Assembly: GCA_017431345.1 (NCBI GenBank)
Contig: JAFRLH010000083.1
Location: forward strand, 1 to 64,000
From: Lachnospiraceae bacterium
GTDB lineage: Bacteria > Bacillota > Clostridia > Lachnospirales > Lachnospiraceae
Reading direction: 5' to 3'
DNA: 64,000 nt
Positions 34,536 to 38,736 of this stretch are shown here, piece by piece; position 1 is the first letter of the stretch, and each line of letters opens with the position of its first letter. The position numbers and the translations under genes were made by a program. A model generated the notes under the pieces. The model did no database searches. It was not told where the DNA came from and saw only the letters and a program-made list of their open reading frames with translations.

Positions 34536-34635
34536 CTGCAGTTCCTCCGGTTCTGTTCTTAAAACATGATTATAACAGAGAAATCCTATTTTGCCACCCT
34601 CTGACTTTTGACAATGAGCATAACTTCATAACAAA

Positions 34636-34668
34636 AACAGGCGGCCTGAAGCCGCCTGTTCAACAGCG
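34636..34668 (-). terminator. intrinsic terminator between redox gene and ilvB
   Basis: AACAGGCGGC pairs with GCCGCCTGTT around a 5-base loop, and on the minus strand TTTTTG follows. It ends the redox gene and separates it from ilvBN. Confidence 0.8.
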
Positions 34669-34727: not shown

Positions 34728-35180
34728 TTATTGTATCATCTCATCCAGAATATCACAGGCGATCACCGCCAGCTTCGGACACGTCTTCATCAGAAGATTC
34801 TCCTTCATGATCGCCGGCATATCCTCCGGAATCTTGTATCCGAGGATCTCGCGGCAGAGCACGCTTCCATTCGTGATCTCATGTTCTTTAAACCGTCTCT
34901 CGAATTCCGCCTTGATCTCCATCATCTTCTGTTTTGCTTCTTCATCATACAGCTCGCAGTGTCCGTATTCCGCGCCCAGCGCCATCAGGGCTCCGGTAAC
35001 GCAGCCGCAGCGCTCGCCGTTCATCATTCCGCCGCCGAAAGCAGCCGCGATCTTCAGCGCCTGCTCCTCGTCCATATCAAGGAGCGCAGCCGCATGGGCA
35101 AAGACGACCTGGGAGCAGTCGATGCCGCCTTTATAGTACTGCGTCGCAAGTTCTTCCGTCATTCTTTCTTCCAGCGCCAT
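34728..35180 (-). CDS. C_GCAxxG_C_C-family redox protein
   Basis: A 150-residue protein of the C_GCAxxG_C_C family (putative redox-active or metal-binding). Conserved cysteines: Cys in GGIDCSQVVF, GERCGCVTGALMALG, and later Cys in SVLCREILG and MKTCPKL. Partner and reaction are unknown. The start has GGAGG upstream. It lies 15 bp downstream of the rubredoxin/GltS/rubrerythrin gene on the same strand, suggesting a shared redox role. Confidence 0.85.
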   Translation of the reverse strand: MALEERMTEELATQYYKGGIDCSQVVFAHAAALLDMDEEQALKIAAAFGGGMMNGERCGCVTGALMALGAEYGHCELYDEEAKQKMMEIKAEFERRFKEHEITNGSVLCREILGYKIPEDMPAIMKENLLMKTCPKLAVIACDILDEMIQ

Positions 35181-35195
35181 ATATACCTCCGGTAA

Positions 35196-35852
35196 TCAGT
35201 AGTTTTCGGCATTGATTTCAAAGAACGCCTGCGGATGCGCGCACACCGGGCAGATCTCCGGCGCTTCCGTGCCGACAACGATATGTCCGCAGTTCCTGCA
35301 CTCCCACACCTTTACTTCGCTCTTTTTGAACACTTCCTGCATCTCTACATTCTTCAGCAGTGCACGGTAACGTTCCTCGTGATGCTTTTCGATCGCTGCT
35401 ACGCCGCGGAATTTCTCGGCAAGTTCATGGAATCCTTCCTCATCGGCGGTCTTCGCGAATCCGGCGTACATATCCGTCCACTCGTAATTCTCGCCGTTTG
35501 CTGCTTCCACAAGGTTCTCCGCCGTGGTCCCGATGCCGTTCAGCTCTTTGAACCAGATCTTGGCGTGCTCTTTTTCATTGTCTGCCGTCTTCAGGAACAG
35601 CGCGGCGATCTGCTCAAAGCCTTCCTTTTTGGCTTTGGATGCGAAATAGGTGTATTTATTCCTGGCCTGCGACTCACCGGCGAATGCTTCCAGCAGATTC
35701 TTTTCGGTCTGCGTGCCGGCATAAGGATTCTTCTTTTCTTCTTCCACCTTTGTGAGCTTGTCTCCCTTCATCTTGCAGACAGGGCATACCGGTTCCTGTC
35801 CTTCGGGTACTTCAAATTCCGCGCCGCATACAAGACATTTGTATTTTGCCAT
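35196..35852 (-). CDS. nested rubrerythrin reading from an internal start
   Basis: Within the fusion gene and in the same frame, ATG at 35850-35852 is preceded by AGGAGG at 35861-35866 with eight bases between. From it a normal stand-alone rubrerythrin of 218 residues would be made: rubredoxin-like N-end ([13 protein letters not shown]), diiron Glu/His helices and C-terminal rubredoxin site. Rubrerythrins reduce hydrogen peroxide in anaerobes. The site sits in an A-run (A7G), where a slip or a sequencing indel would separate the two parts. Which form exists in the cell is unknown. Confidence 0.6.
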
Positions 35853-37307
35853 CTTTTTTTCCTCCTGTTTTTTATCTGTATCTTCTTCCTGAAGATCATT
35901 TTCATAAGGATCTTCTCCGGCATGGCAGATTCCCGTATAGAATGCGATATCACTGTCTGTTGTGATCAGATTCTTACAGGAAAGAGCATGGACATCATCC
36001 AGTCCGGAGACCGAAGCGAACATCTTCAGTTCCTCCGTGGATACGCGGAGATAATTCGCCACTCTGGCAGCTGCCGCTTTCCCGTCAAAACGCTTCCGGA
36101 GTTCCGGATCCTGCGTGGCAATACCGACAGGACATCTTCCGGTGCCGCAGATCCTGTACTGCTGGCAGGCAGCTGCGATCAGAGCTGCCGATGCGACCGC
36201 TACTGCGTCAGCGCCCATGGCAATTGCTTTTGCGAAATCCGATGACACGCGCAGCCCGCCTGTAATTACCAGTTCCACATCCGAACCGGCTGCATCGAGA
36301 CATTTTCTCGCGCGGGCCAGCGCATAGATGGTCGGCACCGACGTGGCATCCCGCAGCATCAGCGGGCTGGATCCTGTAGCACCGCCGCGTCCGTCGATCG
36401 TGATGAAATCCGGTCCGGCCTTCAGCGCGAACGCAATATCCCGCTCTATGTTTCCGGCGGCCAGCTTGATGCCGACCGGCCTTCCTTCCGAACGCTTCCG
36501 CAGGTCGTCTACCAGGGCTCTCAGATCCTCCGTATCTTCAATGCCGGGGAATCTTCCGGGGCTCTGGATATCCTGGCCCTTCGGTTTACCGCGCACTGCC
36601 GCGATCTCATCCGTCACCTTCTCCCCCGGCAGATGACCGCCCATACCGGGCTTGGTCCCCTGTCCGATCTTGATCTCAATTGCGTCAGAAGTCTTCAGAT
36701 TCTCGTCTGTCATGCTGTATCTGTTCGGAATGACTTCAAAGATATATTTGTACGCAGCCGCTTTTTCCTCCGGCAGAACGCCGCCTTCCCCGCTGCACAT
36801 GGCCGTCTTTGCGCCTGCAGCACCCTCCGACAAAGCGATCTTGGCTTCTCTGGAAAGCGCGCCGAAAGACATATGGGAAATATAGACCGGAGATTCCAGC
36901 ACCATCGGTTTTGCTGCATGTTTTCCGATGACAGTCCTCGTGCTGACAGGTGTGCCGTCCGGCAGCGGCATCGGATCGAGCTGTGCGCCGAGAAGGAGGA
37001 TATCTTCCCATTTCGGCAGCGGGAGCGTCGTTCCCATAGCCGCATGAATGCTCTCCCCTGTCACTGCCATCTCATGAATCTCGCTCATATATCTTGCTTT
37101 GGGATCGTGGCGGACATAAGCGGGATCATACGCAAGCTCTCCGGCGTTTAAAGCAGGCTGCGGCGCAGCTGCCTGCTCCGGTTCCTCAACAGGCACAAAG
37201 ACCGAAGCCGGCTGTTTGCAGACCGGACATTTATCCACCTCCGAAAACGGCTTTCCCTCTGCTTCTTCATCATAAATGAATCCGCAGACGCTGCATTCAT
37301 ATTTCAT
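35196..37307 (-). CDS. rubredoxin / glutamate synthase-like / rubrerythrin fusion
   Basis: A 703-residue protein of three parts. Residues 1-45 are a rubredoxin-type iron site ([12 protein letters not shown] and CPVCK). About 60-460 is a FMN-dependent glutamate synthase-like barrel ([41 protein letters not shown]). The last 218 residues are a rubrerythrin with its own N-terminal CxxC pair, a diiron four-helix bundle ([30 protein letters not shown]) and a C-terminal rubredoxin ([17 protein letters not shown]). The start is the second ATG, giving MKYECSVCG. The Met opening the rubrerythrin part is preceded by a strong ribosome site, so two products are likely. Confidence 0.85.
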
Positions 37308-37493
37308 AACGGGAATCATCTCCTTTCCTAGAGTATTCTATCAGAAAAATCGGAATACACTGATTCTTATACAAATTTTTTATTCTATTTTACGTCTTTT
37401 GTCAATATGCAAAGAAATACTAAACCATTCCGTCCCCTTTATTCCTCAAAGCACCGCTTCCGCAAACGGCCTGAAAAATGACGCAAACTGTAC

Positions 37494-37521
37494 TTGTCTT
37501 TTTTTTCACACATGGTACAAT
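37494..37521 (+). promoter_or_regulatory. promoter of the iron alcohol dehydrogenase gene
   Basis: TTGTCT (37494-37499), 16 bp, then TACAAT (37516-37521). The start site would lie about 60 bp upstream of the ATG. Confidence 0.7.
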
Positions 37522-37531
37522 GGTAGAGAAA

Positions 37532-37551
37532 ACAGCCGGTATTCCGGCTGT
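37532..37551 (+). promoter_or_regulatory. hairpin at the 5' end of the alcohol dehydrogenase leader
   Basis: ACAGCCGG-TATT-CCGGCTGT, a perfect 8-bp stem, lies directly downstream of the predicted transcript start. It could stabilise the mRNA or be an operator. No T-run follows. Confidence 0.5.
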
Positions 37552-37590
37552 TCAGTTACACAAAAAACTATTATAAGGAGGCTATTAATC

Positions 37591-38736
37591 ATGGCTGTCA
37601 ATCGTTTCGTCCTGAACGGCATTTCCTACCACGGACACGGTGCGATCAAGGAGATCCCCGGCATCATTGCTTCCCACGGATTTAAGAAAGCTTTCGTGGC
37701 ATCTGACCCTGACCTTGTAAAATTCGGCGTTACCGCAAAGATCACTGATCTTCTTGCTGAGAACGGCATTGCATATGAGCTTTACTCCGATATCAAGCCC
37801 AATCCCACCATTGAGAATGTGCAGCACGGCGTAGACGCATTCAGAGCATCCGGTGCTGATTTCATGATCACCATCGGCGGCGGTTCCTCCATGGACACCG
37901 GCAAGGGCATCGGCATCATTGTCAACAACCCTGAGTTCTACGATGTACGTTCTCTCGAAGGCGTAGCGCCTACAAAGAAGCGCACCGTTTTCACGATCGC
38001 AGTTCCCACCACAGGCGGCACCGGCGCAGAATCCACCATCAACTATGTTATCACCGATGTGGAAAAGAAGCGTAAATTCGTCTGCGTAGACCCTAACGAT
38101 ATCCCCGACATCGCTGTCGTAGATCCCGACATGATGTCTTCCATGCCCAAGGGCCTGACCGCTTCCACCGGTATGGACGCGCTGACCCATGCAATCGAAG
38201 GCTATACCACTGCAGCTGCCTGGGAGCTCTCCGACTGCCTGAACCTGGAAGCGATTAAGCTGATCGCAAAGAATCTCCGCGCTGCGGTCGCCAATGATCC
38301 CGACGGACGCGAAGGCATGGCGCTTGCACAGTATGTCACCGCTATGGCTTATTCCAATGTCGGCCTCGGCATTGCCCATTCCATGGCGCATACCCTCGGC
38401 GCTGTTTATGACACCCCTCACGGTGTTGCCTGCGCAATGATGCTCCCGATCGTTATGGACTTCAACAAGGAATGCACCGGTGAGAAGTACAAAGCCATCG
38501 CGGAAGCGTTCGGCGTAAATATCGAAGGAATGGATCAGGATACTTATCGTCAGGCAGCGATCGACGCTGTACAGCAGCTCTCCGTGGATGTAGGCATCCC
38601 TACCAAGCTGGAGAAGCTGAAAGAAGAGGATCTTCCTTTCCTGTGCGAGTCCGCTGCGGCTGATGCCTGTGCCCCCGGAAACCCGAAGCCTGCGACACTG
38701 GAGCAGTTCGAAGCCATGTTCCGCAAGCTGATGTAA
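37591..38736 (+). CDS. fucO: iron-containing alcohol dehydrogenase (FucO-like)
   Basis: A 381-residue group III NAD(P)H alcohol dehydrogenase, nearest by eye to lactaldehyde reductase/1,2-propanediol dehydrogenases. NAD-binding GGGSSMDTGKG is near residue 97. Iron ligands are Asp and His in STGMDALTHAIEGY, His in HSMAHTLG and His in YDTPHG. The start has AAGGAG about ten bases upstream. Strong promoter, leader hairpin, perfect terminator and clearly biased codons (CCC, ATC, GGC, GAC, AAG preferred) point to high expression, as for an end-step fermentation enzyme. The aldehyde substrate is not certain. Confidence 0.92.
   Translation: MAVNRFVLNGISYHGHGAIKEIPGIIASHGFKKAFVASDPDLVKFGVTAKITDLLAENGIAYELYSDIKPNPTIENVQHGVDAFRASGADFMITIGGGSSMDTGKGIGIIVNNPEFYDVRSLEGVAPTKKRTVFTIAVPTTGGTGAESTINYVITDVEKKRKFVCVDPNDIPDIAVVDPDMMSSMPKGLTASTGMDALTHAIEGYTTAAAWELSDCLNLEAIKLIAKNLRAAVANDPDGREGMALAQYVTAMAYSNVGLGIAHSMAHTLGAVYDTPHGVACAMMLPIVMDFNKECTGEKYKAIAEAFGVNIEGMDQDTYRQAAIDAVQQLSVDVGIPTKLEKLKEEDLPFLCESAAADACAPGNPKPATLEQFEAMFRKLM

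Follow-up and report, generated by a model that had tools for sequence, protein, structure and literature searches.

Does this locus encode one redox protein or two? The question is posed by a gene on the minus strand of the window (the whole stretch of 64,000 nucleotides of Lachnospiraceae DNA that was analysed), in which a rubredoxin, a glutamate-synthase-type domain and a rubrerythrin are read as one polypeptide, while the stretch just ahead of the rubrerythrin holds what looks like a complete translation start. The features needed to follow the argument are given below, in the coordinates of the window.

35196..37319, minus strand: fusion gene, 707 codons, one uninterrupted open reading frame (ORF) and translation from ATG 37319, with an alternative start at ATG 37307
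37200..37304, minus strand: rubredoxin domain at the N-terminus, with four cysteines in a CxxC...CxxC pattern seen by direct reading
36003..36932, minus strand: FMN domain of glutamate synthase, Pfam match to PF01645 over residues 130-439 (E 2e-98)
35853..35915, minus strand: linker, including the putative ribosome-binding site; 13% identity, low pLDDT
35866-35861, minus strand: AGGAGG, candidate internal Shine-Dalgarno (SD) sequence, read directly and by script
35860-35854, minus strand: A7 run, read directly, which with the G at 35853 makes A_AAA_AAG
35852-35850, minus strand: internal in-frame ATG (frame 0, 218 residues to the stop), the proposed start of the nested rubrerythrin
35196..35852, minus strand: nested rubrerythrin gene, 218 residues, with rubredoxin-like, diiron and C-terminal rubredoxin-like domains
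34728..35180, minus strand: next gene downstream, C_GCAxxG_C_C redox protein of 150 residues (Pfam PF09719)
34635..34661, minus strand: terminator-like hairpin after the downstream gene, a 12-pair stem and then a T run

The fusion is arranged as rubredoxin, glutamate-synthase-type FMN domain, linker, rubredoxin-like domain and rubrerythrin; throughout, GltS denotes the glutamate synthase FMN domain and not the symporter of the same short name. Pfam analysis of the single ORF places Glu_synthase (PF01645) at residues 130-439, Rubrerythrin (PF02915) at 540-655 and a RUBY_RBDX rubredoxin-like domain at 672-701, and a second rubredoxin-like stretch separates the linker from the diiron domain. Among 30 aligned fusions, the window included, C4, C7, C26 and C29 of the N-terminal rubredoxin (alignment numbering) are invariant in 30/30, and the FMN domain carries a C-x5-C-x4-C motif, two of its cysteines being invariant and one conserved in at least 90%, which is probably a [3Fe-4S] cluster site. 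Residues E544, E577, H580, E639, H642, C669, C672, C685 and C688, which we take to be the rubrerythrin iron ligands, are likewise invariant in 30/30. The nested part has the classical rubrerythrin layout, PF02915 (E 5.9e-24) followed by PF21349 (E 2e-19), and scores 257 bits against the NCBIfam model RuberyRbr (NF045767; cut-off 200). A structure prediction of middling quality (mean pLDDT 68.9, pTM 0.53), used for the linker only, gives pLDDT below 50 at model residues 469-483, which is the linker just ahead of the internal Met (model residue 485). The host genome, a 3.27-Mb draft assembly of 94 contigs, was searched with the PF02915 profile, which apart from the fusion matched just one frame of 209 residues, with weaker rubrerythrin hits.

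Stand-alone rubrerythrins serve as the reference for where such a protein should begin. In 24 of them that share the same rubredoxin-like front, and whose rubrerythrin domain is 77-89% identical to that of the window, the last Met before that domain falls at the position of the internal Met, and the proteins run 214 to 235 residues from it. These genes differ from the fusion gene of the window in being free: 1 to 40 codons ahead of the matching Met there is a stop codon. Most have a clear SD.

Relatives were sought at the level of genus (11 genomes), family (397) and order (392) and in a species-representative collection (the best 80 of at least 589 relatives), which yielded 136 distinct Rd-GltS genes. 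Among the matches listed, 30 are fused to rubrerythrin, 5 have a separate rubrerythrin downstream, within 1.5 kb, another 5 have it upstream, and 96 have no rubrerythrin in the stretch examined (for one of these, L204, that stretch has 1 base downstream); 30/136 is not a prevalence, as the query is itself a fusion and the listings stop short of the weakest matches. The window contributes 1 of the 30 fusions, the genus 2, the family 14, the order 6 and the species-representative collection 7. Two related proteins are free of internal stops, one 98% identical, whose gene has the same A7 run (G010), and one 72% identical, whose gene lacks the run (G008). A later search of 391 genomes across the class added 15 Rd-GltS loci, of which 5 are fused and come from two families outside the order; the other 10 are unfused, with rubrerythrin elsewhere in the stretch in 3 of them.

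The fusions come in two layouts, 18 with a rubredoxin-like domain or its remnant before rubrerythrin and 12 without, which occupy mostly separate parts of the GltS-domain tree, although three members of the second group are placed within the first. In that tree, of 123 domains, made by a quick method before some of the loci were added and with many weak forks, fused and separate states are intermixed with at least 12 changes between them, and its starred branches force at least 4 and at least 3 changes for the two layouts. On this tree, many weak forks included, the fusion is read as having arisen more than once. A tree of 108 rubrerythrin domains also mixes fused and free copies, with stars on 8 of 105 inner branches; it is too weak to confirm or deny multiple origins and is compatible with one origin per layout.

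That the internal ATG begins a rubrerythrin had been proposed from the window by itself, and the observation behind the proposal was exact: AGGAGG, an 8-nt spacer and an in-frame ATG stand inside a continuous gene, as direct reading and script agree. The comparison now supports it well. A Met stands upstream of the rubrerythrin domain in 29/30 fusions, and an SD core of at least 5 nt at proper spacing precedes 27 of these 29 junction Mets (27/30 genes) as against 39/487 other internal ATGs of the same genes; with a core of at least 6 nt the figures are 23/29 and 10/487, and with at least 7 nt they are 21/29 and 2/487. In the recurrent pattern, a dissimilar linker finishes with AAGGAGG or something near it, an ATG follows after 6-9 bases, and rubrerythrin comes next. 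Of the three genes without a good site, one has lost the front of its rubrerythrin (L040), one has no Met (L060) and one has a weak SD (L065). The five later fusions, examined with the idea already in place, all have AAGGAG or AAGGAGG at their junctions, four with ATG and one with TTG (L276, read by eye), and a further fusion truncated by a contig end (L108) has AGGAGG and ATG. As a control, an SD core of at least 5 nt precedes 18/464 internal Mets in window ORFs of at least 250 residues. Free rubrerythrin genes reach at least 5 nt in 42/45, and by this measure the nested sites look no weaker than ordinary starts. Relatedness of the fusions weakens all of these counts; when they are clustered by GltS identity, 90% gives 18 clusters, the site being present throughout 15 of them, 85% gives 12, with 10 having it throughout, and 80% gives 3, with 1 having it throughout and the two mixed clusters containing all three misses.

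The linker itself is far less conserved than the flanking domains, with a median pairwise identity among the 30 fusions of 13%, against 74% for GltS and 84% for rubrerythrin. Where a Lys-Glu pair stands just ahead of the internal Met, it is spelled AAG GAG in 17/19 genes (taking the first such pair), where the codon usage of each gene predicts 4.2 and the same genes elsewhere use AAG GAG in 33/186 cases; in the two exceptions (L032, L182) a second Lys-Glu pair closer to the Met is AAG GAG. Because the linker is 13% identical and the SD is nonetheless kept, with this bias in synonymous codons, the DNA at the junction, and not only the protein, is by these comparisons conserved beyond protein constraint. 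The window has both an SD with a start codon inside a longer ORF and a site conserved in this manner, as is expected of an in-frame nested gene.

The best explanation, to which we assign a probability of about 0.85 on sequence evidence, is that a genuine redox fusion contains a conserved in-frame start for a nested gene, by which both the fusion and a free 218-residue rubrerythrin would be produced. Ribosomes starting at the first ATG would make the fusion of rubredoxin, FMN/Fe-S reductase domain and rubrerythrin, of about 78 kDa as estimated from its length, whereas those that bind the AGGAGG of the linker would start at ATG 35852 and make the free rubrerythrin from the same mRNA. A scan of a weak kind for an internal promoter for rubrerythrin found no sigma-70-like match on the minus strand from the junction to 37125. 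From this arrangement we infer, besides initiation at the internal ATG, a stoichiometry, a route of electron transfer and mixed oligomers: the front part would take electrons from NADH and reduce the rubrerythrin peroxidase, and free rubrerythrin would outnumber the fusion, giving oligomers that hold a few tethered reductases.

The rival that survives best, though we hold it improbable, is a functionless loss of a stop codon, by which two ordinary operon genes were fused by chance and the SD and ATG were left as a relic. It draws on the five relatives that keep separate genes, in which the downstream rubrerythrin has its own SD (L043, L062, L063, L079, L148), and on the intermixing of fused and separate states in the GltS tree described above. 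A relic should have decayed, yet the SD and the open frame both persist, which disfavours this reading: the SD remains where linker identity is down to 13%, its synonymous codons are biased, the site is present in 5/5 fusions from other families, and the frame stays open across 28 linkers of 15-36 codons that come in 11 different lengths. The two other frames of these linkers are open in 12/28 and 5/28. Linker composition predicts that about 9% would be open and in frame, against 30 fused among the 35 Rd-GltS genes that have a rubrerythrin no more than 1.5 kb downstream, a ratio that may be inflated, as a fused gene has an open frame by definition and a fusion query favours fusions.

Somewhat less probable again is that the SD-like motif serves as a translational pause between domains, allowing co-translational folding, and starts nothing. 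Elongating ribosomes have been suggested to pause at SD-like sequences (Li et al. 2012, as cited in PMC4066793), and the motif does sit on a domain boundary. A pause needs no start codon, however, and one follows 6-9 nt on in 27/30 fusions, and at a similar distance in the five later ones; where it is not ATG, the site is occupied by TTG (L276) or, in a gene that joins GltS to a rubredoxin, by GTG (L039). The position, moreover, matches the Met of the stand-alone genes, which also counts against a pause.

A programmed -1 frameshift at A_AAA_AAG, yielding a short Rd-GltS protein, had been advanced alongside the internal start in the original prediction; in that scheme of products the internal start is upheld by comparison, and the short GltS form is not, with the heptamer being rare and no hairpin present. 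The sequence was correctly read: the codons GAA AAA AAG give A_AAA_AAG in the zero frame, an SD lies upstream, and the slip expected to terminate within about 15 codons would add, as computed, 13 residues before a stop (a +1 slip at the A run would append 27). In 12/28 genes with an internal Met, some X_XXY_YYZ heptamer (Y = A or T) lies no more than 12 codons from it, of several kinds and in several places, but A_AAA_AAG itself stands near the junction in only 4/30 fusions (the window, L002, L031 and L180). Thus a zero-frame heptamer of the dnaX type is present, while its conservation and a downstream hairpin are not; the RNA folds no better than shuffles (z 0.25; one sequence of 106 nt, pseudoknots left aside). 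In dnaX, the SD stands about 10 nt upstream of the slippery heptamer, unlike the window, where AGGAGG abuts the A run. Finally, 106/136 Rd-GltS genes are already short through an ordinary stop, and we hold the frameshift a very unlikely source of a short form here and reject it. Least credible of all is the suggestion that a one-base sequencing or assembly error in the A run masks a stop codon: a homopolymer does adjoin the junction and the genome is a draft, but the same open junction is seen in 34 genes besides the window, once in G010 next to an identical A7 run, once in G008 with none and in 32 further genes, and we reject the error reading.

The C_GCAxxG_C_C redox protein gene begins 15 bases after the fusion stop, a spacing from which co-transcription of the two might be guessed. 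The hairpin that follows is weak on its own, with 3 terminator-like sites in the region against a shuffle mean of 3.1. On the other side, an iron alcohol dehydrogenase ORF is listed at 37276-38736 on the plus strand, in which ATG 37591 is the only internal Met with a 7-nt SD core in the long ORFs of the window; this ATG is probably the true start of the gene.

Rubrerythrin also ends other long ORFs, and similar starts recur in these. Among 33 distinct ORFs of this sort, L108 included, a Met stands at the domain start in 22, and the domain start has an SD core of at least 5 nt in 16/33 against 32/338 control Mets, and of at least 7 nt in 8/33 against 0/338; the loci were chosen for long rubrerythrin ORFs, and the counts show recurrence, not frequency. 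The site is found in 6/7 ORFs of [FeFe] hydrogenase type (680-716 residues; three Pfam-tested, the others assigned from their length and the sequence they have in common) and in 9/14 of ferredoxin type (four Pfam-tested, the rest assigned by exclusion). In three of the hydrogenase-rubrerythrin fusions, an internal AAAGGAG-ATG is present in L133 and L145 and absent in L109. A search of 291 genomes of the class for the hydrogenase fusion (E 1e-130) gave no match spanning rubrerythrin, and this fusion rests on seven loci.

Single cases extend the range of partners. At L089:403-1320 (plus strand), just upstream of an Rd-GltS gene, a PerR/Fur-type regulator and rubrerythrin share one frame, in which an internal ATG at residue 128 has AGGAGG 10 nt ahead of it; the locus was scored as a miss in the domain-start count, the landmark having been misplaced by the CxxC of PerR itself. 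A desulfoferrodoxin-rubrerythrin fusion (L243) has no such start. The genome that holds L243 also holds L039 (G122:C27), in which, as in its copy L159, Rd-GltS is fused to a small rubredoxin-like domain alone, without rubrerythrin; AAGGAG and an in-frame GTG precede that domain, perhaps marking a nested free mini-rubredoxin. In the fusion L278 (G968:C75), the rubredoxin-like domain and the diiron domain are each preceded by an SD-ATG pair, two in all; this gene could conceivably yield three products.

Fusions of flavin reductase, rubredoxin and rubrerythrin (one of the nine, L224, Pfam-tested) resemble the fusion gene of the window in having a reductase-type domain upstream of rubrerythrin; unlike in that gene, a start codon at the rubredoxin domain is lacking in 9/9, so a fusion of this sort is possible with no start there. 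In 5/9 of them, GGAGG and ATG stand just ahead of the diiron domain.

From this spread of partners a wider picture may be drawn, tentatively and at slightly less than even odds: rubrerythrin would be a travelling nested gene in Clostridia, repeatedly fused together with its start behind Rd-GltS, [FeFe] hydrogenase, ferredoxin and, once, PerR, with the tethered copies docking into oligomers that are mainly free protein. If true, different electron donors would be plugged into one peroxidase by translation, and Rd-GltS would be the missing rubrerythrin reductase.

The interest of the locus is that it bears on the open question of the rubrerythrin donor and that the arrangement recurs with several partners. 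The physiological electron donor of rubrerythrin is an open matter in at least one well-studied anaerobe, according to the account in PMC11980386, and a natural, conserved Rd-GltS-rubrerythrin fusion argues that the two are partners, with tethering a possible solution to a slow transfer step. The fusion gene is a ready construct on which this partnership can be tested. If the nested start is real, a metabolic enzyme joins the known nested in-frame genes, and gene callers that keep the longest frame would likely record one protein and miss the second. Among the matches listed in the rubrerythrin literature (titles and abstract openings of openly licensed papers), no description of a nested rubrerythrin start or of an Rd-GltS-rubrerythrin fusion was found.

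The nearest known system is the Rd-GltS protein CD0828 of Clostridioides difficile, described in PMC11980386, from which the following is taken. CD0828 has an N-terminal rubredoxin, a glutamate-synthase-type FMN domain and C-x5-C-x4-C, and all three are found in the window in the same layout. Both are tied to rubrerythrin, CD0828 by operon and phenotype: its gene is part of the rbr operon, NADH reduces it, and mutants lacking it behave like delta-rbr towards H2O2, air and 4% O2, with the exception of one strain under 4% O2. It differs from the fusion of the window in being a separate protein of 480 residues, with rubrerythrin another gene of the operon. Electron transfer from CD0828 to Rbr, which is a tetramer in C. 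difficile, was so slow in trans in vitro that the authors consider CD0828 probably not the physiological partner, and they state that the Rbr partners remain to be identified. The fusion argues that Rd-GltS and rubrerythrin act together, because a polypeptide joining both is kept over wide divergence.

Internal in-frame initiation is already known as a kind, and the rubrerythrin case is a variant of it. In the type II endolysins CTP1L, Lys170 and LysIME-EF1, as reported in PMC12203907, one gene gives the full-length protein and its C-terminal domain by an in-frame start, as proposed for the window, and full-length and short chains form mixed oligomers (2+2, 1+4); two products from one message would in the same way set an excess of free rubrerythrin over fusion. 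These are, however, phage lysis enzymes whose short form is a binding domain, whereas the short form proposed here would be a complete peroxidase. Bacterial N-terminal proteoforms that arise from in-frame internal starts, as in ClpB and IF2 (infB) (PMC11005335; Meydan 2019 as cited there), share internal in-frame initiation with the window but are, in that account, shorter isoforms of one protein. The internal start of the window looks instead like the original start of a gene that was absorbed by fusion, and with more than one partner.
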